Part shown: piece by piece, positions 1 to 48,230 of the stretch | Layout of the letters: each line of letters opens with the position of its first letter | Numbering within the stretch: position 1 is the stretch's first letter | Assembly (NCBI GenBank): GCA_024281055.1 | Contig: JAMXLF010000091.1 | Coordinates: forward strand, 1-48,421 | DNA from: Geobacteraceae bacterium | Lineage (GTDB): Bacteria; Desulfobacterota; Desulfuromonadia; Geobacterales; Geobacteraceae | Direction of reading: 5' to 3' | DNA length: 48,421 bases | Position numbers and translations under genes: made by a program | Notes under the pieces: model-generated | Database searches by the model: none | Told to the model about the DNA's origin: nothing | The model's input: only the letters and a program-made list of their open reading frames with translations

Positions 1-323
1 CTCCGACCCCGGCTCCGACCCCGGCTCCGACCCCGGCTCCGACCCCGGCTCCGACGCCTGCTCCGACCCCGGCACCGACGCCTGCCCCGACTCCGAAGCC
101 GACGCCTGCTCCGACCCCGGCCCCGACGCCTGCTCCGACCCCTACCCCGGCGCCTGCTAAGACCTGGGCTACCTACAATACCTACTGCTCCGGTTGCCAC
201 GGCACCGCGATGCAGGGTGTGACCGTCGCCCAGATTCAGGCCGCCATCGCTGCCCAGCCGGCCATGAGCGGACTGTCCTCCCTCTCTCTCGCGACGCTGA
301 ACGCCATTGCCTCCGGTCAGTAA
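1..323 (+). CDS. Pro-Thr-Pro repeat single-heme c-type protein, copy 1 (5' end missing)
   Basis: This is the 3' part of a gene that begins before the window; the reading frame is set by codons from base 3 to the TAA at 321-323. The visible 106 residues are about 52 residues of PTPA/PTPK tetrapeptide repeat followed by a 54-residue C-terminal domain with one CSGCH heme c attachment motif. A downstream Met in 'QPAMSGL' is a plausible sixth heme ligand. The C-terminal domain is identical to that of the next gene at 48 of 54 positions, and the DNA after the stop is also alike, so the two genes are tandem duplicates. By analogy with that gene the missing N-terminus should carry a signal peptide. 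The likely role is electron transfer outside the cytoplasm. I do not recognise a named family for the whole protein. Confidence 0.85.
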
Positions 324-1424: not shown

Positions 1425-1532
1425 AATGGATATGCGATACTACTAAACCATCCGCAAGGGTGGGGCGGAAAGCCTAGGGTCTTACGAAGACAGCCGGGAT
1501 GTCGAAATAGATGAGAGTTCCGGCGTTTTTTT
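1425..1532 (+). promoter_or_regulatory. GEMM-I type cyclic-dinucleotide riboswitch
   Basis: The segment matches the GEMM-I aptamer layout. A P1 helix can form between 1435-1439 and 1500-1504. The conserved AAACC lies at 1445-1449. P2 (1448-1453 with 1458-1463) is closed by a GCAA tetraloop, followed by GGAAAGCC at 1467-1474, P3 (1479-1483 with 1487-1491) and the conserved AGCCGGG at 1492-1498. The GCCGGGA that closes the aptamer is also the 5' arm of a terminator (1493-1532), which implies that ligand binding prevents termination and turns expression on. GEMM-I RNAs bind c-di-GMP, and a Geobacter subset binds 3',3'-cAMP-GMP. I cannot decide the ligand by eye. The nearest downstream gene is the mannosyltransferase-like gene at 1696. 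Confidence 0.82.
1493..1532 (+). terminator. Riboswitch expression-platform terminator
   Basis: Arms 1493-1499 and 1518-1524 form a 7-bp stem including one G-U pair, followed by seven T (1526-1532). The 5' arm overlaps the 3' part of the GEMM aptamer, so the two structures exclude each other. Confidence 0.75.
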
Positions 1533-1695: not shown

Positions 1696-4254
1696 ATGAC
1701 AGGAAACATGAAAATGATCAACATGAAGCGAGTGCTTCTGACGGCGGCTCTGCTTGTCTCCATGGCGGCGGGAGTGTTTGCCGCAGAGACGCACTCTCCG
1801 ATGGATCACACCACGCAGAGCGCGGTGCAATGGACGAAATACGATTGGAATGCATCCTCCGGAAAAAGCGACGTTGCGCGCTTTGCAATCGAAGGAGAGA
1901 AAGAGGCGGTTCGACTCCACATTACCGCTTCAACACCCGACGACGCGCGTTTTGTCCGTGAAGTGGCGGTGGAACCGGCCACGATCTACCATTTCGCCTC
2001 CCGGGTGCGGACGGAAAATGTCGGAACTAAGGCTCGCGGGGCGGGAATTTCGGTTTCGGGGATCCTCGGCGGCTCGCGCGACATTACCGGGACGAGCGCC
2101 GGGTGGCAGACAGTCGACTTTTTCGGGAAGACCGGGACTGAGCAGCGACGGCTTTCCGTCACCGTCGGCGTCGGGGGGTATGGCAGCCTGAACAGCGGCA
2201 GCGCCTGGTTTGAAGACATAACTGTGGAGAAGGCGACGAGCGTGCCGCCGGGAGTCACAGTAGCATCGTTAGAGCCGCTGGCGGTGAGGGCCTCCGTCCC
2301 TCCCCCACAAAGCAGCAAGATGGGAGGTAATGTCATTGCCGCTTTCGTCTGCCTCGGCGCGATTCTCGTGGCGGTCGGGCTCTTCGGACGCCGCCGGAGC
2401 GGCGGCAAGGGGAGCGACGGCAATACTAGCGGTAGCGGCGGCAATAGTGGCGGCACTGGTGGCAATGCCACTGGTGGCATTGCTGAAGAAGGCGGGGAAA
2501 AGGCAGAGAGGCACGCTGCCACGCCCGGTGGGGTGAGCAGAGGCGCGCAGCGGAGCGATGTCGCCGTCATGGCCGCTCTGACAGTGGTCTGCCTTGCCGT
2601 TTCCCTCTTCAATCTCGGCGGCCACGTCGCGCCGGATACGGGGTGGCAAGCGGCTGCACCGGAAGAAACGGTAACCGTCGAACTGGGCCGGGAGGTCGAG
2701 CTGTCCCGATTCTACTACTACTGTGGCATTAACGATCGGAGCGGGGACGACAGCCGGTTCGCGCTCGCCGCCCGCAACGCCGCAGGGGCATTCGTTCCGC
2801 TCCTCTCCTTTACCAAGAACGACTCCAGCGTCTGGAAGTTCTCCGAAATTGCCGTACGGACCAGCGCCATCCGCCTCACCGCCGACACCGCCGGCGGCAG
2901 GCTCAACGAAATAGCTCTTGTGGAAAAGGGGAGGCGGATCCCTCTTTCCGGTCTGCGGATCGGCGAAAGGCAAGTCTCCGCCAAGGACGTGGGGAAGCCT
3001 GAGAATCTCATCGATGAGCAGGCGGCCTTCGAGTACGCCCCCTCTTTCCGGACCGGTTTCTACTTCGACGAGATCTATCACGGCCGCACCGCCTGGGAAA
3101 TGCTCCATGGGATCGAGCCGTACGAGACCACCCATCCGCCGCTGGGTAAACTCCTCATCTCCGCGGGAATTGCCCTCTTCGGGATGAACCCCTTCGGCTG
3201 GCGGATCGTGGGCACGCTGTTCGGGGTGGCGCTGGTGCCGCTTACGTACCTGTTCGGCCTGAAGCTCTTTCGGAACCGGTTCTACGCCTTCGGCGCCGCG
3301 TTCCTGATGATGTTCGACTTCATGCGCTTCGCCCAGAGCCGGGTGGCGGTGATCGACGTCTACGGCGTTTTCTTCATCCTGGTAATGTACTACTTCATCC
3401 TCGACCTCTTCCCCGAGGCGGGGGAGCGTCCGACCCGGAGCACGAACGCCACGCTCCTCCTGACCGGGGTCGCTTTCGGTGTCGGGGCCGCGTGCAAGTG
3501 GATCGCCGTCTATGCCGGCGGCGGGATCGCCCTCCTGGTGGTCCTCAAGACGGTGACGGAGCTGAAGAGGCGGAATTTCTCGCCCGGGCAGGGAGCGGCC
3601 GGATTTCTCCTCAAGCGGGTTGCCGTCTGCGTCCTCACCTTGGCGGTGGTTCCCGCGGTGATCTATCTCCTGGCGTACCTGCCGTACCTGGCCCTCCCCG
3701 GAGCGGGGCACGACCTGGCAGGGGTCTTCCGCCTCCAGGCGCATATGCTGAATTACCATCGGACGCTGCAGGCGACACACCCCTTCTCCTCCCAATGGTG
3801 GTCGTGGCCGCTCGACCTGCGTCCGATGTGGATGTACACAGGCCAAGGGCTTCCGGCCGGGATTGTCTCCAGCATCGCCTCCTTCGGCAATCCCGCCATC
3901 TTCTGGCTTGCCATTCCGGCCGTCGCCGGTGCGGCCTTTCTTGCCGTATCGCGGCGCGACGCGAGGATCGGAGTCGTGCTGACGGCTCTGCTCTTCCAGT
4001 ACCTGCCGTGGGTGGGCATAAACCGGCTCGCCTTCATCTATCACTTTTTCTCGTCGGTGCCGTTCGTGATCTTCTGCATCGTGGCTATTCTGAAAAGCCT
4101 GGAACTCCAATTCCCCCGCTTCCGCACCGTCACCTGGGGGTACCTCGTCATCACGGCCGGGCTCTTCGTCCTCTTCTACCCGGTCCTTTCGGGGCTCCCG
4201 GTCAGGGAGGGATACATGGCGGGGCTCAAGTGGCTGCCGACCTGGCTCTTCTAA
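1696..4254 (+). CDS. Protein O-mannosyltransferase-like GT39 (PMT family) membrane protein with extra N-terminal domains
   Basis: The protein has 852 residues. Enzymes of this family transfer a sugar from a polyprenyl-phosphate donor to Ser/Thr of exported proteins. In order there are a signal peptide (about residues 10-30); a beta-rich, carbohydrate-binding-like region (about 40-185); a membrane segment near 215-232; a Gly/Asn/Ser-rich linker (about 234-272); a second membrane segment; a discoidin-like stretch (about 320-415); and the PMT catalytic core from about 455. The core shows the acidic pair in FYFDEIYHG (Asp458, Glu459), the THPPLGK loop near 480 and many membrane helices, with the HPFSSQWW motif of the PMT C-terminal region later. 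ATG 1696 follows AAAGGAAAG; ATG 1708 or 1723 are possible alternatives. The gene is downstream of the riboswitch and is followed after 52 bases by a polyprenyl-phosphate glycosyltransferase gene that could make its donor. The sugar and targets are unknown. Confidence 0.82.
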   Translation: MTGNMKMINMKRVLLTAALLVSMAAGVFAAETHSPMDHTTQSAVQWTKYDWNASSGKSDVARFAIEGEKEAVRLHITASTPDDARFVREVAVEPATIYHFASRVRTENVGTKARGAGISVSGILGGSRDITGTSAGWQTVDFFGKTGTEQRRLSVTVGVGGYGSLNSGSAWFEDITVEKATSVPPGVTVASLEPLAVRASVPPPQSSKMGGNVIAAFVCLGAILVAVGLFGRRRSGGKGSDGNTSGSGGNSGGTGGNATGGIAEEGGEKAERHAATPGGVSRGAQRSDVAVMAALTVVCLAVSLFNLGGHVAPDTGWQAAAPEETVTVELGREVELSRFYYYCGINDRSGDDSRFALAARNAAGAFVPLLSFTKNDSSVWKFSEIAVRTSAIRLTADTAGGRLNEIALVEKGRRIPLSGLRIGERQVSAKDVGKPENLIDEQAAFEYAPSFRTGFYFDEIYHGRTAWEMLHGIEPYETTHPPLGKLLISAGIALFGMNPFGWRIVGTLFGVALVPLTYLFGLKLFRNRFYAFGAAFLMMFDFMRFAQSRVAVIDVYGVFFILVMYYFILDLFPEAGERPTRSTNATLLLTGVAFGVGAACKWIAVYAGGGIALLVVLKTVTELKRRNFSPGQGAAGFLLKRVAVCVLTLAVVPAVIYLLAYLPYLALPGAGHDLAGVFRLQAHMLNYHRTLQATHPFSSQWWSWPLDLRPMWMYTGQGLPAGIVSSIASFGNPAIFWLAIPAVAGAAFLAVSRRDARIGVVLTALLFQYLPWVGINRLAFIYHFFSSVPFVIFCIVAILKSLELQFPRFRTVTWGYLVITAGLFVLFYPVLSGLPVREGYMAGLKWLPTWLF

Positions 4255-4306
4255 CCCAGTAACCAATGACCGCGGGGACCACCCCGCATCAATGAGAGGT
4301 GAAAAA

Positions 4307-5317
4307 ATGAAACAACAGGTAATTTCCGTAGTGGTTCCCGTTTACAATGAAGAAGCGGTGGTTTTCGAGTCCTATAAACGGCTCACCGGGGTACTGAAAG
4401 CGCTGCCCGATCCGTACGAGCTGATCTTTGTGAATGACGGCAGCCGAGACGCCACAGCGGACATCCTGCGCCGCATCTGTGGGACCGACCCCGCCGTCCA
4501 CCTGATCGACTTCGCCCGCAATTTCGGCCATCAGACCGCCATTACGGCCGGGATGAATTACGCATCGGGAGATGCGGTGGTCGTCATCGATGCCGACCTC
4601 CAGGACCCCCCCGAGGTGATTCCTGCAATGATCGACAAGTGGCGCGAGGGGTATGACGTCGTTTACGGACAGAGGGCCAAGCGGAAGGGGGAGACCTTTT
4701 TCAAGCGCTTCACCTCCGCAGCCTTCTACCGCGTCCTCCAGAAGCTGACCGACGTCGACATCCCGGTGGATACCGGCGATTTTCGCCTCATTGACCGGAA
4801 GGTGTGCGACGCCCTCAAGCAGGTCAAGGAACGGAACCGCTACGTCCGCGGGATCATCAGCTGGCTTGGCTTCAAGCAGACGGGAGTGGAGTTCGATCGG
4901 GACAAGCGATTTGCGGGAGAGACCAAGTATCCCCTCAAGAAGATGCTGCGCTTCGCCTTCGACGCCATTGCATCGTTCTCCTACAAGCCGCTGAAACTGG
5001 CGTCCTATGTCGGGGTCACCGTCTCCATTACCGGGTTTGCGTACCTTCTGGTGGTCGTCTACGAGAAGCTCTTCACCACAATGACGGTGACCGGTTGGAC
5101 ATCGATGATGGCGGTCAGCCTCTTCTTCAACGGCGTTGTGCTGATGATGCTGGGGATCATAGGCGAGTACATCGGCAGGATCTATGATGAAGCGAAGGGG
5201 CGGCCGCTCTATGTGGTTCGCGAAACGCTGCATGTCTCCGGGGCGGAAAAGCTGACGGGCGGAGAACCGGCGCCGGCACACGGCCGGGAAGGCAGGCGCC
5301 ATCCCTTGGCCGCCTGA
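4307..5317 (+). CDS. Polyprenyl-phosphate glycosyltransferase (GT2, DPM1/GtrB/ArnC-like)
   Basis: This 336-residue protein starts with the GT-A fold motif VVPVYNEE, followed by FVNDGSRD and the DxD-containing VVIDADLQDPPEV. Two C-terminal membrane helices (about residues 230-255 and 265-290) end in the family motif GEYIGRIYDEAKGRPLY. Such enzymes move a hexose from a nucleotide sugar to polyprenyl phosphate on the cytoplasmic face. The product would be a natural donor for the PMT-like enzyme encoded 52 bases upstream. ATG 4307 is chosen for the GAGAGGTG ribosome site at 4295-4302. A short GC hairpin (about 4271-4286) lies in the gap before it. The sugar transferred cannot be read from the sequence. 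Confidence 0.88.
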   Translation: MKQQVISVVVPVYNEEAVVFESYKRLTGVLKALPDPYELIFVNDGSRDATADILRRICGTDPAVHLIDFARNFGHQTAITAGMNYASGDAVVVIDADLQDPPEVIPAMIDKWREGYDVVYGQRAKRKGETFFKRFTSAAFYRVLQKLTDVDIPVDTGDFRLIDRKVCDALKQVKERNRYVRGIISWLGFKQTGVEFDRDKRFAGETKYPLKKMLRFAFDAIASFSYKPLKLASYVGVTVSITGFAYLLVVVYEKLFTTMTVTGWTSMMAVSLFFNGVVLMMLGIIGEYIGRIYDEAKGRPLYVVRETLHVSGAEKLTGGEPAPAHGREGRRHPLAA

Positions 5318-5335: not shown

Positions 5336-6640
5336 TTACGCGAGATAGCGCCGGTATCCGATCCTGACGAGGAGGAGCAGCAGGAGTACGTTGGCCAGAG
5401 ACACCGCCAGCAGCAGCGGATCGAACCGCGGCACGGCGTAAACGCTGCGATGGCTGAGGGCCAGGACCTCAGCCATATTGAGGAACTGGGTCGTGCTGAA
5501 GCCGGCGAAGAGCAGAAGCCCGTGTCGGTCACGGTTGGCGATGGAGAACCCCAGGGCAAGTGCAAGCGCCGGGAAGAGGTAGCGTTCATGCATCTTTGCC
5601 GACAGAACGAAAACCGCCGCGAAGAGAAACAACGGTACATACCAGAAGCGGGAGGGTTCTTTCCCGCGTAGTGCCACCGCTGCCGCGAAGAGGAGCGTGA
5701 GGACGATGAAGATGTTTCCCCAGACCGCGTACGGGATGAGAAGGAACCGGTCTGCCGTCGAGGAGAGGTTTCCGCCGATCAGGGCATAGAGGTTGAAAGC
5801 GTTCAGGGTGGCGTAGGGATACGAGGCAAGAGTGCCGACGTATTTCCCGATGATCCAGCCGGGGCTCTCGTTCACGGCAAAGGGGAGGATGCCGAGGCAG
5901 AAGACCACGATTGCCGTTCCCGCGAATACGAGGAGGTCCGCGGCTGCATGCCTTGTCCGGCGCAGGAACCGGTCCGCGAACCAGAGGATCGGGAGCGGGG
6001 CGAAGATGAGTGCCTGGGGTTTCACCAGAAGCGCCACCGCGAAAGAGGCCGCGGAACCCGCCGGGTGGCTTTCCAGCAGGAGCACCCCCAGCAGGAGGAA
6101 AAGGGTCAGGATGCCGTCCACCTGTCCCCAGACCGCCGAATCGAGAATCACGGCGGGGTTGAACGCATACAGCGCTGCCGCTGCCAATGCCGCCCCGCTA
6201 CTCCACTCCTCCCCTCGTGCCAGGAGGTAGAGGAGCCATGCCGTGAAGGTGTCCGCCAGGATTGCCGGGAGTTTCAAGAGGACCATGAAGGCCGGGGACG
6301 CAAAATCGAGTCCCAGGAGGAGCCGCAGCTTTCCCACCAACCAGAGCACGTATATATAACCCGGGGGGTAGTCGGCAAAGTAGCCCGGCGAATAGAAGGA
6401 GGTCAATCCTTCGGCGGCGTGCGCCGCCCAGGCGCTGAACGTTGTGATGTCAGTGTCGTACCCCTTGGTCGTCGCCGCCAGGATCACCCTCACCACCACG
6501 GCCACGGCCAGGAGCAGCGCCAGCCGCCAGCCGTCACGCTCCCCATCCCCCCCCTGCGTTCCCCGTGCCGCCGCCAGCCAGGCGCCCCACAGGAAGAGTG
6601 CGCAGCAGGCCGATACCAGAATCCACCATCCTCCGCTCAT
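5336..6640 (-). CDS. GT-C fold membrane glycosyltransferase (Gpi18/COG5542-like)
   Basis: The 434-residue protein is almost entirely hydrophobic, with roughly ten membrane helices. A first-loop acidic motif (KGYDTDITTF) and the later YPPGYIYVLW and AVWGQVDG motifs are typical of polyprenyl-phosphate-sugar-dependent GT-C mannosyltransferase-like proteins. It should act on the periplasmic face. It is 12 bases downstream of the gtrA-like gene, forming a two-gene leftward unit convergent with the PMT/GT2 pair. It may use the same lipid-linked sugar pool. The acceptor is unknown. The start is the ATG at 6640, with only a weak ribosome site. Confidence 0.75.
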   Translation of the reverse strand: MSGGWWILVSACCALFLWGAWLAAARGTQGGDGERDGWRLALLLAVAVVVRVILAATTKGYDTDITTFSAWAAHAAEGLTSFYSPGYFADYPPGYIYVLWLVGKLRLLLGLDFASPAFMVLLKLPAILADTFTAWLLYLLARGEEWSSGAALAAAALYAFNPAVILDSAVWGQVDGILTLFLLLGVLLLESHPAGSAASFAVALLVKPQALIFAPLPILWFADRFLRRTRHAAADLLVFAGTAIVVFCLGILPFAVNESPGWIIGKYVGTLASYPYATLNAFNLYALIGGNLSSTADRFLLIPYAVWGNIFIVLTLLFAAAVALRGKEPSRFWYVPLFLFAAVFVLSAKMHERYLFPALALALGFSIANRDRHGLLLFAGFSTTQFLNMAEVLALSHRSVYAVPRFDPLLLAVSLANVLLLLLLVRIGYRRYLA

Positions 6641-6652
6641 AGTGCAAACCCC

Positions 6653-7048
6653 TTACCTGAAGACCCAGAGTTTGTTTCCAAGGAAATTCGCTGCCAGGGC
6701 GCACGCCGTAGCCCCCCCCTTGGCAACGGCCAGTGTCAGTCCCGTCACGTCGTGAAGAAGAGCGAGGCAAGCGACCGATATCCCCAGCGAAATCAGGTTC
6801 ACGACGACAAAACGGACCATCTCGGCATAGGAGAGCCCACAGGAGCGAAACGTCCAGACCTTATTGAGCAGATAGCTGTTTGCTGCCCCGCAGGAGTAAG
6901 AAACGACCTGTGCCGCCACATAAACGATTCCCAGCCATGTCAGCAGAAAAAAGACCGCTACATCGATTCCCGTATTCAAAAGACCGACCAGCATGAATTT
7001 GACAAATTCACCGATCGAATGGTGATGGCGCGCGATAAGCTGTTTCAT
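6653..7048 (-). CDS. GtrA family membrane protein
   Basis: This 131-residue protein has four predicted membrane helices and the GtrA signature pattern (FVKFMLVGLLNTGIDV near the start, NSYLLNKVWTF in the middle, NFLGNKLWVF at the end). GtrA proteins are thought to help flip polyprenyl-phosphate-linked sugars across the inner membrane. It lies directly upstream of the GT-C gene. Together with the GT2 gene opposite, the locus holds a synthase, a candidate flippase and two transferases. A good promoter lies upstream on the same strand. Confidence 0.88.
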   Translation of the reverse strand: MKQLIARHHHSIGEFVKFMLVGLLNTGIDVAVFFLLTWLGIVYVAAQVVSYSCGAANSYLLNKVWTFRSCGLSYAEMVRFVVVNLISLGISVACLALLHDVTGLTLAVAKGGATACALAANFLGNKLWVFR

Positions 7049-7125
7049 GGGGAAGTGCTTGACAGATTCTCCAAAAGATTTCTTTGTGGTATTGCTTGAA
7101 TTTCATGCAAAGTTGTTTTCGTACA

Positions 7126-7153
7126 AGTATAAAGGCCCCTCCCCCGATGTCAA
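7126..7153 (-). promoter_or_regulatory. Sigma-70-like promoter for the gtrA-like/GT-C unit
   Basis: Read on the minus strand, TTGACA (7148-7153) and TATACT (7126-7131) are separated by 16 bases. It lies about 80 bases upstream of the GtrA start. Confidence 0.7.
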
Positions 7154-7274
7154 ATCACCGGCTCCCGGCGATACAACCAACTCGCCCCTTGTGGCGTGAA
7201 GGGAAATATATTACTCTGACAGCAAGGGGAAGGATGATGAAAGAAGCGGAATCGTTCCAGGGACAGGAGGTTTC

Positions 7275-7619
7275 ATGAGAGATCTGCTCGTCAGGTGGGG
7301 GATCAACAGCATCGCGCTCTTCGTCGTGGTGCACCTGGTGGCCGGGGTGAGCGCGGAACGGTGGCAGAGCGTGCTGGCCGGGGCGCTGGTCCTCGGACTC
7401 CTGAACGCCTTTCTTCGGCCGGTGCTCATTCTCCTTACCCTGCCGGTGAACGTCCTGACGCTGGGGCTCTTCACCCTCGTGGTGAACGGGATCGTCTTCT
7501 ACCTGGCCGCCTCGCTCGTCAAGGGATTTTACGTGGCCGGCTTCTGGAGCGCCATGGTTGCTGCGCTTGTCTTCAGTATCGTCAGTTTCCTCCTGAACAT
7601 GCTGATCAATTCCGGCTAA
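7275..7619 (+). CDS. Four-helix membrane protein, phage-holin superfamily IV-like (PF04020 type)
   Basis: This 114-residue protein has four membrane helices and the conserved central pattern ALVLGLLNAFLRPVLILLTLP. Despite the family name, these are common chromosomal proteins of unknown function. A strong AGGAGG site precedes the ATG. The stretch between the divergent gtrA start (7048) and this gene holds the minus-strand promoter and nothing else I can identify. Confidence 0.82.
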   Translation: MRDLLVRWGINSIALFVVVHLVAGVSAERWQSVLAGALVLGLLNAFLRPVLILLTLPVNVLTLGLFTLVVNGIVFYLAASLVKGFYVAGFWSAMVAALVFSIVSFLLNMLINSG

Positions 7620-7773
7620 CGGCACTGGAGTTCACTTCAGGTGGCGAGACGGTTGAGCTGCAGGACCTCCACGTTCAGACCCATGGGCAGCTCCTTGCAG
7701 CCTTTTCTCCCCTAAAAGGGTGGCATCAGCGCCGGTCTTTGCAAGGCGTGGCCATTGACGGAGGTACGGTACG

Positions 7774-8343
7774 ATGCAGGAAGACGGTGCCAAATGGAAT
7801 GAACGGTACGCCCAGGCCGGCCTGTACCACGGGGCAGCCCCATCCCCTTTCCTGGCCGAACGGATCGGTTTCCTCGCCTTCCTCACGCCTGGCCGCAGGG
7901 CCCTTGATCTTGCCTGCGGCGAAGGGCGCAACAGCATCTTTCTCGCCCACAACGGCTACATCGTCACCGGGCTCGACATCTCGGGCGAGGGGCTCGCCAA
8001 GGCCGCCCGCCGGGCGGCGGCGGAGGGGCTTGCCATTGACTTCCGTCGTGTCGATCTGGAGGGATACGGGTTCGAGGAGCGCTGGGACCTGATCATCAAT
8101 TTCAATTTTCTGCTGCGCGACCTGATCCCCAAGATGGTCGCCGCCCTCAATCCGGGCGGGGTGATCGTCTTCGACACCATCCTCGCCACCCCGGCCCTCG
8201 CCGGGACCCACAACCCCGCATTTCTCCTCCAGCCGGGGGAGCTGCGGCGGATCTTTTGCCGCTTACCCGGTACGATCCTCTACGACGAAGAGTGTCACGA
8301 AGGGCCGGCCCCCACTGCCAGGCTGATCTTCCAGGGGCATTGA
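7774..8343 (+). CDS. Class I SAM-dependent methyltransferase (TehB-like)
   Basis: The 189-residue protein has the SAM-binding motif ALDLACGEGRNSIFLA (motif I), followed by VTGLDIS (motif II) and a later LNPGGVIVFDT strand. The WNERYAQ opening is common in small TehB-like methyltransferases. The substrate is unknown. GGAGGT sits about 9 bases before the ATG. The 154-base gap upstream has no clear gene. Confidence 0.82.
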   Translation: MQEDGAKWNERYAQAGLYHGAAPSPFLAERIGFLAFLTPGRRALDLACGEGRNSIFLAHNGYIVTGLDISGEGLAKAARRAAAEGLAIDFRRVDLEGYGFEERWDLIINFNFLLRDLIPKMVAALNPGGVIVFDTILATPALAGTHNPAFLLQPGELRRIFCRLPGTILYDEECHEGPAPTARLIFQGH

Positions 8344-8432
8344 TGCCGCCTCTTCGCCGTTGACTTCCCGGGAAATCCTGTCAAAATTTAATAAGAGACT
8401 GAGCAACATTCACGTCATCCGGGGGAATTGAA

Positions 8433-11400
8433 ATGAAGCGCTGGCAGAAGTGGGTTCTGGGGGTGGCCGCATTCTTTTCCCTTGTCATTGCCTTTATCGC
8501 CATGATTCTACCCGGCATCGTCCGCACCAAGGCTGTCGAGGGGATCGCGGCGGCAACAGGACGAAGGACGGCGATCGCCCGGGTCGACATCGATCCCTTC
8601 ACCTGGACGGTGCGGGTCGAGGGGGTCCGCCTCAACGAGAAGGGGAGCGACGTAACTTTCGTCTCCTTCAGCAGCGTGAGGGTGAAAGTGAGCCCACGCT
8701 CCCTCTTCCGCCTTGCCCCCATCGTCACCGAAGCGCACCTGACATCGCCCTATCTCCATGTCGTCCGGACTTCTGCCAATACCTACAACTTCTCCGACCT
8801 CCTGGAAGGGAAGGGGCCGAAGAAGGGAGAGGCGGGAAAACCGCTCCGCTTTTCCCTGAACAACATAACAATCGGCAACGGTGCCGTCGATTTCGTCGAC
8901 CGGGCACTGGCCACGGAGAAACGGCACACCCTGCGGCAGATCGAGGTGGGGGTGCCGTTCATCAGCAACATTCCCTACCTGGCCGATCGCTACGTCCAGC
9001 CCCGTTTCAGCGCAGTGGTGAACGGCGCGCCCTTCAACCTGGCGGGGCGGCTGAAACCCTTCGTCAAGGGGGCCGAGACGACCATCGATGTCAACCTGAG
9101 GGAGTTGTCACTCCCCTTCTATGTCTCCTACTATCCCGGCACGCTGCCGGTGCAGGTGGATTCCGGCCGTCTCTCCATGACCCTGGAGATCGTCCACCGG
9201 ATTGCCGGGGAAAACAAACCCGAGCTGGAGGTGAAGGGGAGCGTCGTCCTGGCGGATGTTGCTGTGCGGGACCGGCGCGGCGCGCCCCTCGCATCACTGA
9301 CCCGGGGAGAGGTGAAGATCGGCCGGGCCCGGGTCATGGCCCGGGATTTCTCTGTCGCCGCCGTGGATGTCCAGGGCCTGGAGGCGTACCTTGCCCGCAG
9401 CCGCGACGGGGCATGGAACTTCCAGCAGTTCGGCGAGGGGAGGGAAGAGAAGCCTTCCACAGCTCCCGCGGCCAAGCCGGTCATCACTGTTGACGACATC
9501 CGCTTTGCGAAGTGTCTGCTCCATGTCGCCGACAGCGTGCCTCCCGGCGGCTTTGCGACCGACCTCACCGATATCTCCCTCGGTGTGCGGGGATTTTCAA
9601 CCTTGCCGGGCAGGAAGGGGACGTATGACCTGGCCTTCGCCACGGCGCGCGGCGAGAAAGGGAAAATCACCGGCGAGGTCGTCCTGGAGCCCCTCGCCGT
9701 GACCTCTACCATTGCACTGGGCGCGGTTCCCCTCGCTTCATACTATCCGTATCTCGCAGGGGTCCTCAACGGACCGGTCAAGGGGTATGCGGACCTCTCC
9801 GGCGAGGTCGCCTACCGCGACAAGATACTTTCCGCGGACAAAGTCATGCTCGGGTTCAGGGACCTCGCCGCCAGTTTCGGCCCCAAAGAAGGCATTCTCT
9901 TCAAGCGCGCCACCATGGCGGGTGGGCGGTACAGCCAGTGGGCGAACCTGCTCGAATTTGACGCGATCACGGTTGCCGGAGGCGATATCCGTTTCTCCCG
10001 CGACCGGGAGGGGAATTTTTCCCCGGTCACGCTTCTTCGGAAAACGCCGGCCGGCAAGACGGGCGTGGCGCATCCGCAGAAGAGCGCGGGGCCTGAATTT
10101 CGCTACCGGACCCGGCAATTCGCTCTGAGCGGCCTCTCCGTAGCCTTCACCGACCACAAGGTGGAGGGGGACCCGAGCTTTTCCCTGCGACGGGGCGAGG
10201 TTGCCATCCGCAACTTTGCCTGGCCCCGGCGCGAAACCATGCCGTTCAGCCTGAAGGCGGGCTACGGTGCCTCTGGTTCTGTCCGGTTGTCGGGAAATGT
10301 TGCAGTATCGCCCTTCGCGTTGAAGGGGGAGTGCTCGCTGCAGAGAATCCCCCTCGACGATTTCGATCCCTATCTTCCCGCCAACCTGAATCTCACGGTT
10401 GCCGACGGAAATCTCGACACGAAGCTATCCTTTGCTCTGTCAGAGGCCGGCGGAAAGACAACCGGGAACTTCCGCGGCGACCTGGGTGTCCGCTCCTTCT
10501 ATGCCCTTGACGCGGACGGCGAAGACCTCCTCAAGTGGGAAAGCCTGGAGCTCGACAATCTGCGCGGCACCCTCAGCCCCTTCTCCCTTGATATCGCCGG
10601 GGTTGCCCTCAACCGCTTCTATTCGCGGATCGTCGTCGAGAAAGACGGCGTCCTCAACCTCAAGCAGCTCTATACTCCGGAGGAGGGGAAGGAGAAGGAA
10701 CCGCAGGCATCCGCCGCCGACCCGCCACCCGCCCCGGCAAAACCCTCGCCGGTGACGTCTCCTGCTCCCCCGGCCCGGGGGACGGTGCGGATCGATACGG
10801 TTACCCTCCAGGACGGGACCATCGCCTTTATCGACCGTCATACGTCCCCGGAATATGCTTCGAGCATGGTCAACCTCGGCGGGAGGATCAGCGGCCTCTC
10901 CTCCGCAGCGAACACCCTCGCCGACGTGGACCTGCGGGGCAACCTGGAGAACCAGTCGCCGCTCCGGATCACCGGCCGGATCAACCCGCTGCGGGACGAC
11001 CTGTTCGTCGACCTCAAGGTGAGCTTCAGCGACATCGAGCTCTCCCCGATGACCCCCTACTCCGGCACCTTCCTCGGCTATGCTGTGGACAAGGGAAAGC
11101 TCTACCTCGACCTTACCTACCACATCGAGAAGAAGGAGCTCAATTCGCGGAACAAGGTCTTCATCGACCAGCTCACCTTTGGCCGCAAGGTCGAGAGCGA
11201 CCGGGCAACCAGCCTTCCCGTGCGGCTCGCGGTGGCGCTGCTCAAGGACCGCAAGGGGGAGATTCACCTCGACCTCCCGGTGGCGGGGCGCACCGACGAC
11301 CCCAAGTTCAGCGTCTGGCGGGTGGTGTTCCAGATGCTGCGCAACCTCCTCGTCAAGGCGGCCACCTCGCCCCTCGCCCTTCTCCAGTCAGCCTTCGGCG

Positions 11401-47760: not shown

Positions 47761-47836
47761 GCTGGCGTAGCTCAATTGGTAGAGCAGCTGACTTGTAATC
47801 AGCAGGTTGCGGGTTCGAGTCCCATCGCCAGCTCCA
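47761..47836 (+). tRNA. tRNA-Thr (anticodon TGT)
   Basis: The acceptor stem GCTGGCG/CGCCAGC, the D arm, the anticodon loop CTTGTAA and GGTTCGAGTCC in the T arm are all present, and the 3' CCA is encoded. Length 76. Confidence 0.97.
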
Positions 47837-47866
47837 CCAGAAATATGGATTGACCCGATCTTCCCT

Positions 47867-47952
47867 GGAGGGATTCCCGAGTGGCCAAAGGGAACAGACT
47901 GTAAATCTGTCGTCGGACGACTTCGGAGGTTCGAATCCTCCTCCCTCCACCA
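47867..47952 (+). tRNA. tRNA-Tyr (anticodon GTA)
   Basis: A class II tRNA of 86 bases with acceptor GGAGGGA/TCCCTCC, anticodon loop CTGTAAA, a long variable arm and encoded CCA. Confidence 0.97.
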
Positions 47953-48065
47953 TATAACAACTGCAGAAGCTGTAAGCGCTGGGCGTCTCCAGGAGACCAG
48001 AGGTCGTACGGACTGGGGATGAAACGGCCGTTTGCAGCTTCAAAAACATCGTAGAGACGGAATTG

Positions 48066-48142
48066 GCGGGAGTAGCTCAGTTGGCTAGAGCATCAGCCTT
48101 CCAAGCTGAGGGTCGCGGGTTCGAGTCCCGTTTCCCGCTCCA
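48066..48142 (+). tRNA. tRNA-Gly (anticodon TCC)
   Basis: Acceptor GCGGGAG/TTCCCGC, anticodon loop CTTCCAA and encoded CCA; 77 bases. It follows a 113-base spacer that contains inverted repeats but no tRNA. Confidence 0.97.
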
Positions 48143-48154
48143 ATTTTCCAACCT

Positions 48155-48230
<76 letters not shown>

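Follow-up and report, generated by a model that had tools for sequence, protein, structure and literature searches.

A GEMM-Ib riboswitch precedes a protein O-mannosyltransferase homologue that is consistently encoded near stalk cytochromes in Geobacterales

A PMT gene, a riboswitch and stalk cytochromes in one locus

A homologue of PMT-family protein O-mannosyltransferases and secreted monoheme cytochromes with long Pro-Thr/Ala stalks form a conserved gene pair that is often under cGAMP-type control, and this pair, rather than the riboswitch, is the interesting part of the locus described here. Taken alone, the riboswitch is an ordinary additional GEMM-Ib member of a known regulon. A fairly probable reading is that cGAMP induces an enzyme set whose task is to O-glycosylate the stalks of PgcA-like cytochromes; the regulatory part of this proposal is well supported by the sequence, and the glycosylation part derives from gene linkage. 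The window, that is, the whole 48,421-nucleotide stretch of Geobacteraceae DNA that was analysed, contains the following features of interest.

1-323, +, 3' part of a second Pro-Thr-repeat monoheme cytochrome, truncated where the contig ends (sequence reading)
590-1206, +, monoheme cytochrome with a single CXXCH and a stalk of Pro-Thr repeats (sequence reading)
1290-1317, +, intrinsic terminator 3' of the cytochrome gene (terminator scan)
1375-1403, +, possible weak sigma-70 promoter, TTGATT-17-CACAAT (inference from reading the sequence)
1432-1506, +, GEMM-I (RF01051) aptamer of GEMM-Ib type, with A20 at window position 1442 (covariance score)
1493-1532, +, intrinsic terminator, its 5' strand overlapping aptamer P3 (stem 1493-1500/1517-1524, then G and seven U)
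1541-1684, +, MITE-like inverted-repeat element between the terminator and the PMT gene (genome matches, alignment, fold)
1696-4254, +, PMT-family protein O-mannosyltransferase homologue, 852 aa, with an N-terminal CBM-like domain (Pfam, profile, fold)
4292-5317, +, GT2 glycosyltransferase (nearest NCBIfam model PgfS, below cut-off)
5336-6640, -, membrane protein read by eye as a putative GT-C glycosyltransferase (a conserved cassette member)
6653-7048, -, GtrA-family membrane protein, putative flippase (Pfam PF04138; conserved)

At the other end of the window, four tRNA genes are clustered at 47761-48227.

The PMT homologue and its glycosylation cassette

The product of 1696-4254 matches PF02366 with 78.4 bits (cut-off 22.7) and PF16192 with 60.3 bits (cut-off 32.4), and PF13231 is also over its cut-off, i.e., the PMT, PMT_4TMC and PMT_2 domains all score above the respective thresholds. 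The FDE motif (D458-E459, between TMD1 and TMD2) and the HPPLGK motif are invariant in 12 of the 12 aligned homologues; in PMTs, the DE motif is reported to be invariant and catalytic (PMC12705809). A phmmer search of the PDB with the single protein found no chain at E 0.01, and only the 12-row profile retrieved fungal Pmt4 (E 1.1e-5), yeast Pmt4 and yeast Pmt2. The predicted model (mean pLDDT 68.7) aligns to fungal Pmt2/Pmt4 structures with Z of 25-27 and to ArnT with Z of 21.7; within the same whole model, the N-terminal CBM-like domain aligns to 4d0q with Z of 14.2. The NCBIfam equivalog NF058602 (PrMnsylTfPmt) gives 102.1 bits, below its cut-off of 800, and the protein is not filed there. 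Thus, the Pfam PMT models, the DE motif and the fold support the original prediction of a glycosylation gene behind the switch, and the protein can be classified as a PMT homologue with a predicted mannosyl transfer activity. It shares the PMT and PMT_4TMC domains, the DE motif and the predicted GT-C fold with fungal/yeast Pmt1, Pmt2 and Pmt4 but differs from them in that the long form in the window has an N-terminal CBM-like beta-sandwich.

The GT2 protein encoded next to the PMT gene scores 291.6 bits against NF047588 (PgfS), under the cut-off of 500, so that its likeness to PgfS is by analogy only, and the product of 5336-6640 has no Pfam or NCBIfam match at 1e-3. In Streptococcus mutans, PgfS and the PMT-type PgfM1 are reported to modify surface proteins, and the threonine-rich region of one of these, Cnm, is described as a predicted O-glycosylation site (PMC5856776). 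The S. mutans pgf operon, which modifies Cnm and WapA, resembles the present cassette in the PgfS-nearest GT2, in the PMT-type membrane partner and in an acceptor gene with a Thr-rich region adjoining the glycosylation genes; unlike in the pgf system, the acceptor proposed here is a heme protein, GtrA is present and the GT2 falls below the PgfS cut-off.

GT2 would supply a lipid-linked sugar that would be used by PMT, helped by the GT-C/GtrA pair, and PMT would most likely O-glycosylate Pro-Thr stalk threonines of the monoheme cytochromes encoded nearby. Both the sugar and the acceptor could differ from this proposal.

The PMT-cytochrome pair is conserved across genomes

When 141 genomes of the order were searched with the PMT protein (E 1e-80), 14 loci were identified in 13 genomes from two families; PF16192 (PMT_4TMC) at E 0.001 finds exactly the same 13 genomes. 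Apart from the window, 13 PMT loci from 12 genomes were available for comparison. Both in the window and in all 13 others, that is, in 14 of 14 loci, a Pro-Thr/Ala monoheme cytochrome is encoded no more than about 3 kb from the PMT gene. From the number of short stalk cytochromes per genome given below, we estimate the probability of a chance cytochrome neighbour within 6 kb to be of the order of 1% per locus, for loci that share ancestry. The PMT is therefore most likely to be grouped with the electron-transfer genes. The original prediction had placed a PMT-like gene near heme genes, and these heme genes prove to be its conserved partner; the contrast that it implied between a glycosyltransferase and the electron-transfer genes mainly found under GEMM-I control in Geobacter is accordingly misleading. 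No description of a PMT/stalk-cytochrome pair was found in a literature search that covered a minority of subscription journals and no preprints.

The complete set of PMT, GT2, putative GT-C and GtrA is present in 11 of the 13 loci, and the remaining two, L176 and L180, run off their contigs. GEMM-I aptamers were detected in seven of the 13 (18 matches, all 18 with A20); an eighth contig, L174, starts inside a cytochrome; and the other five loci (L181-L185) lack GEMM-I, with 11-18 GEMM-I held elsewhere in the respective genomes. The PMT of these five loci is shorter, has about 50% identity and lacks a CBM-like domain at its N terminus; their cytochrome is located past GtrA, at the opposite side of the cassette. 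Since the pairing persists in five loci without GEMM-I, it is independent of the riboswitch.

Several individual loci show particular features. In L175, two stalk cytochrome genes are each preceded by a pair of GEMM-Ib aptamers and PMT by a single one, with all five packed into 2.4 kb (6752-9196). The PMT copy of G028 reads in two frames. The public contig JAQTXD010000074.1 (L031) apparently corresponds to the PMT locus of G103; among the 49 loci other than L031, ten clostridial ones were examined, and none of these ten contains GEMM-I.

The stalk cytochromes as candidate acceptors

PgcA, a PTx-repeat cytochrome, is reported to be under the control of a cGAMP riboswitch (PMC5732950). PTx repeats with CXXCH are present in the window cytochromes and in those on contig C8 of the same genome, which can be described as PgcA-like only. 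By comparison with the description of PgcA, which is an extracellular cytochrome in G. sulfurreducens, the likeness consists in PTx repeats followed by CXXCH and, for the C8 copy, in the cGAMP-type riboswitch; the differences are that the window cytochrome (590-1206) contains one CXXCH rather than three hemes and has no lipobox readable by eye. At the end of C8 (L137), two GEMM-Ib aptamers in tandem precede one complete Pro-Thr cytochrome and the first part of a further one. Thus, a cytochrome directly preceded by GEMM-Ib is seen for the C8 copy and not for the two window copies, with cmscan finding no GEMM-I directly before either cytochrome in the visible part of the window. Both C8 and the window end inside Pro-Thr repeats, and our guess is that they may abut, although no exact overlap of at least 16 bases was found between the end of C8 and the start of the window.

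Among the matches listed, PMT-containing genomes encode roughly one to three short stalk cytochromes each. For comparison, we collected ten loci (L186-L195), nine from genomes lacking PMT and one, L195, from the PMT-containing genome G089; the loci from PMT-lacking genomes were chosen as strong or short A2 matches among the matches listed. A nearby PMT is absent from all ten. Seven of the nine loci from PMT-lacking genomes hold eight stalk cytochromes, and L191 and L194 are without such a stalk. The combined Thr and Ser fraction of the stalk is higher in 18 proteins from PMT-containing genomes than in the eight from PMT-lacking ones (one-sided Mann-Whitney p 0.0004, an optimistic value because the 26 proteins are related, four stalks, in window 3-320, L174, L189 and L192, are truncated at contig ends, and of the seven PMT-lacking genomes three, G078, G018 and G025, are 52-84% complete). 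Exceptions to this trend are L175:7108 (G124, PMT-containing), which is PA-rich, and L186:8514, L189 and L190, which are Thr-rich and come from PMT-lacking genomes. GEMM-I occurs at six of these ten loci, with 11 matches, all A20. In L186, L187, L188, L190, L192 and L193, a protein of about 490-770 aa, TolC-like when judged by eye, is encoded after the stalk cytochromes, many of which have PA-rich stalks.

We also weighed the possibility that the PMT cassette makes a surface polysaccharide or modifies other proteins, with the cytochrome linkage reflecting shared regulation or history only. Indeed, Geobacter cGAMP riboswitches are reported to precede polysaccharide genes as well (PMC6456294), ArnT, a lipid A enzyme, is on the fold list (Z 21.7), and Thr-rich stalks occur in the three PMT-lacking loci named above. 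Against this stand the PMT-specific Pfam models and the DE motif, the cytochrome near all 14 PMT_4TMC loci in the 141 genomes, and the five GEMM-I-less loci, which keep the pairing in a different gene order, so that shared riboswitch control cannot explain it. We regard this alternative as somewhat unlikely and favour glycosylation of the stalks. A broader version of the favoured proposal, plausible but more tentative, is that cGAMP, via separate GEMM-Ib switches, induces both the Pro-Thr-stalk cytochromes, including those of the locus, and the PMT/GT2/GT-C/GtrA machine that would glycosylate their stalks; Thr-rich stalks, mostly in PMT-containing genomes, and Ala-rich stalks, mostly in those lacking PMT, would then be two evolutionary states of one electron-transfer protein. 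Our confidence in both the favoured and the broader version is reduced by the fact that direct signs of joint control are confined to the C8 cytochrome and do not extend to the two window copies.

The aptamer and its likely ligand

The original prediction of a GEMM-I riboswitch was confirmed by a cmscan search of the whole window, in which positions 1432-1506 (+) match RF01051 (c-di-GMP-I) with 47.1 bits (gathering 35, E 3.4e-06), covering model positions 1-87 in full, with two P3 pairs flagged as non-standard in the alignment. That prediction had also read position 20 as other than the canonical G, and the residue is indeed an A: in the Rfam alignment, Vc2 position 20 corresponds to window position 1442, where the model column that we take to be position 20 was found by counting along the Vc2 sequence. 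ACUACU stands directly 5' of AAACC, and the C and U that follow A20 are each opposite a G, forming a C-G pair and a U-G wobble in place of the consensus G-C and C-G. For Gmet_0970, an A20G exchange is reported to shift selectivity from cGAMP to c-di-GMP (PMC6456294), and 12 of the 17 GEMM-I RNAs reported for G. sulfurreducens bind cGAMP in experiments (PMC8835794).

Among the 69 aptamers compared, the closest ones are located between the cytochrome and PMT genes in G124 (93%) and G119 (88%), both with A20; given that the nearest relatives are positional orthologs, the PMT-proximal switch looks inherited. Considering the A20, the closest similarity to two A20 positional orthologs and the GacA-like GGDEF protein encoded in the genome (see below), the aptamer can be assigned to GEMM-Ib, cGAMP-type by the published A20 mark, and cGAMP is its likely ligand. 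The original prediction had left the ligand open, and these three lines of evidence point to cGAMP as the probable one. The published A20 signature, the repeat element and the role of the heme genes as conserved partner do not figure in that prediction.

A probable ON switch with a reused P3 strand

Positions 1493-1500 (GCCGGGAU) pair with 1517-1524 (GUUCCGGC), after which come G and seven U (1525-1532), and the lowest free-energy fold of 1420-1540 contains this terminator hairpin (-39.5 kcal/mol, z -2.95; matched by 1 of 200 shuffles). The CCGGGAU stretch (1494-1500) is both the 3' strand of P3 in the Rfam alignment and the 5' strand of the terminator, and hence aptamer and terminator are mutually exclusive, as had been originally predicted; the same reuse is found in G. 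metallireducens pilM, a characterised ON switch whose aptamer and terminator likewise cannot form together (PMC9262584). With the terminator 3' strand forced unpaired, an aptamer-like fold is obtained at -21.7 kcal/mol vs -32.9 kcal/mol unconstrained, both energies being calculated without ligand and tertiary terms. The stricter terminator scan did not report 1493-1532, the loop being too long for its rule.

The aptamer/terminator layout of 1432-1532 recurs in paralogs and positional orthologs. In a survey that takes whichever downstream stretch pairs best and ends in a T-rich tail, a rule that favours pairing, 41 of the 47 A20 matches keep six of six stem pairs and the T-rich tail, R19 keeps five pairs, and R04, R06, R08, R09 and R17 (another scaffold) have none or doubtful ones; overall, six of the 59 rows (R02, R06, R07, R08, R14 and R17) show no hairpin. 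The terminator of L180:3008 carries a two-sided change, GCCAGG/CCTGGC.

We infer that 1432-1532 functions as a transcriptional ON switch. Without ligand, GCCGGGAU would pair downstream, giving rise to the intrinsic terminator upstream of the PMT gene; once cGAMP is bound, this strand would be held in the aptamer, and RNA polymerase would read on into PMT and GT2. The Geobacter GEMM-Ib switches of pgcA (GSU1761), Gmet_0970 and pilM are alike in the RF01051 fold, A20, the ON-switch layout and the link to Pro-Thr-repeat cytochromes; the window copy differs in that it directly precedes a PMT homologue, with a repeat element before the gene.

Because the terminator at 1290-1317 follows the cytochrome gene, the PMT unit is probably transcribed separately, and the reading of PMT as a mere tail of the cytochrome operon was rejected. 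The promoter scan gave no promoter at 1375-1403, where the possible sigma-70 promoter was read. A perfect palindrome, TTGTGCCA-GTTT-TGGCACAA (1383-1402), lies within this possible promoter and is the sole copy in the genome.

A repeat element and a weak hairpin

The 144-bp element downstream of the terminator has 15-bp terminal repeats (CAGGTTGTTGAAAAA), and the 1536-1695 stretch folds at -56.5 kcal/mol (z -5.39). The element has eight matches in its own genome, five of them, including the window copy, nearly full length, is found in 16 of the 37 relatives searched (17 of 38 genomes with its own included; 22 matches were counted in G009) and is missing from both positional orthologs (G124 and G119). 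Given this dispersal and absence, it was rejected as a part of the riboswitch.

The window terminator hairpin (-12.7 kcal/mol) is weaker than those of 23 own-genome paralogs, i.e., the weakest of the 24 that the pattern could measure among the 41 GEMM-I of the genome, with outer A-U pairs left out. Together with the repeat element that follows, this hairpin suggests that control may be leaky, and PMT expression may perhaps be leakier here than in the relatives. A stronger reading, which we consider unlikely, is that the switch is decaying, such that a weak terminator and an inserted element leave PMT near-constitutive or otherwise driven in this strain. The weak hairpin and the separation of terminator and ORF by the element fit decay, and pgcA riboswitch variants, including one with a destabilised terminator, are reported to allow expression without cGAMP (PMC6456294). 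However, the aptamer exceeds the Rfam cut-off, the P3/terminator overlap and the seven-U tract are intact, the PMT frame is open across 852 codons, and the PMT unit is set apart by the cytochrome terminator, all of which argue against decay.

The GEMM-I regulon and the GGDEF proteins

The RF01051 search of the 4.4-Mb genome (G000) yielded 41 GEMM-I matches, 40 of them above the cut-off, and none of the 14 control genomes gave a match; for G. sulfurreducens, by comparison, the reported number is 17 (PMC8835794). By ruler, position 20 is A in 29, G in 10 and C in 2 of the 41 matches, with some rows off by one column, R38 reading G by the AAACC anchor, and R41 apparently damaged. Some of these GEMM-I are in tandem, on contigs C26, C8, C29 and C35. 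L142 (G000:C24:25710-25786, -) has G20 on a GEMM-Ib-type scaffold, 5' of a gene for a 793-aa protein with one CXXCH, and is perhaps a natural A20G-like change that might sense c-di-GMP. L143 (G000:C26:38714-38790, +) is the sub-cut-off match, in tandem with an intact copy before a gene for a two-CXXCH protein; its 5' half is damaged, and it looks decayed.

The genome contains 26 GGDEF matches, and in the 20 with a readable motif, this is GHxxGD in 17, GHxxGS in two and GHxxGN in one. Of the two GHxxGS proteins, the one encoded on C95 (GGDEY) has 6D9M as its top PDB match (245 bits; next 145), and 6D9M also comes first for the other, on C8 (166 bits; next 134). The serine of the motif is presumably S347 of GacA, the Hypr serine. 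S347 is a residue mutated in the GacA work that describes 6D9M, a GacA GGDEF fusion structure (PMC6456294). By these similarities, the C95 protein is a GacA-like, putative cGAMP synthase of the Hypr type.

The prevalence of the ordinary GHxxGD motif, along with the description of position 20 as influencing selectivity without acting as a hard filter (PMC9262584), leaves some room for an aptamer that binds c-di-GMP, or both dinucleotides, despite A20, which would tie PMT to c-di-GMP. We consider this quite improbable, considering that A20 sits on a GEMM-Ib scaffold and is found in every GEMM-I match of the other PMT loci, and that the genome has a GacA-like protein; cGAMP remains the ligand that we favour.

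Implications

The PTx repeats of PgcA-like electron-transfer proteins are unexplained, and the pairing described here offers a specific, testable role for them. If the proposal is true, protein glycosylation would join cGAMP-controlled metal respiration.
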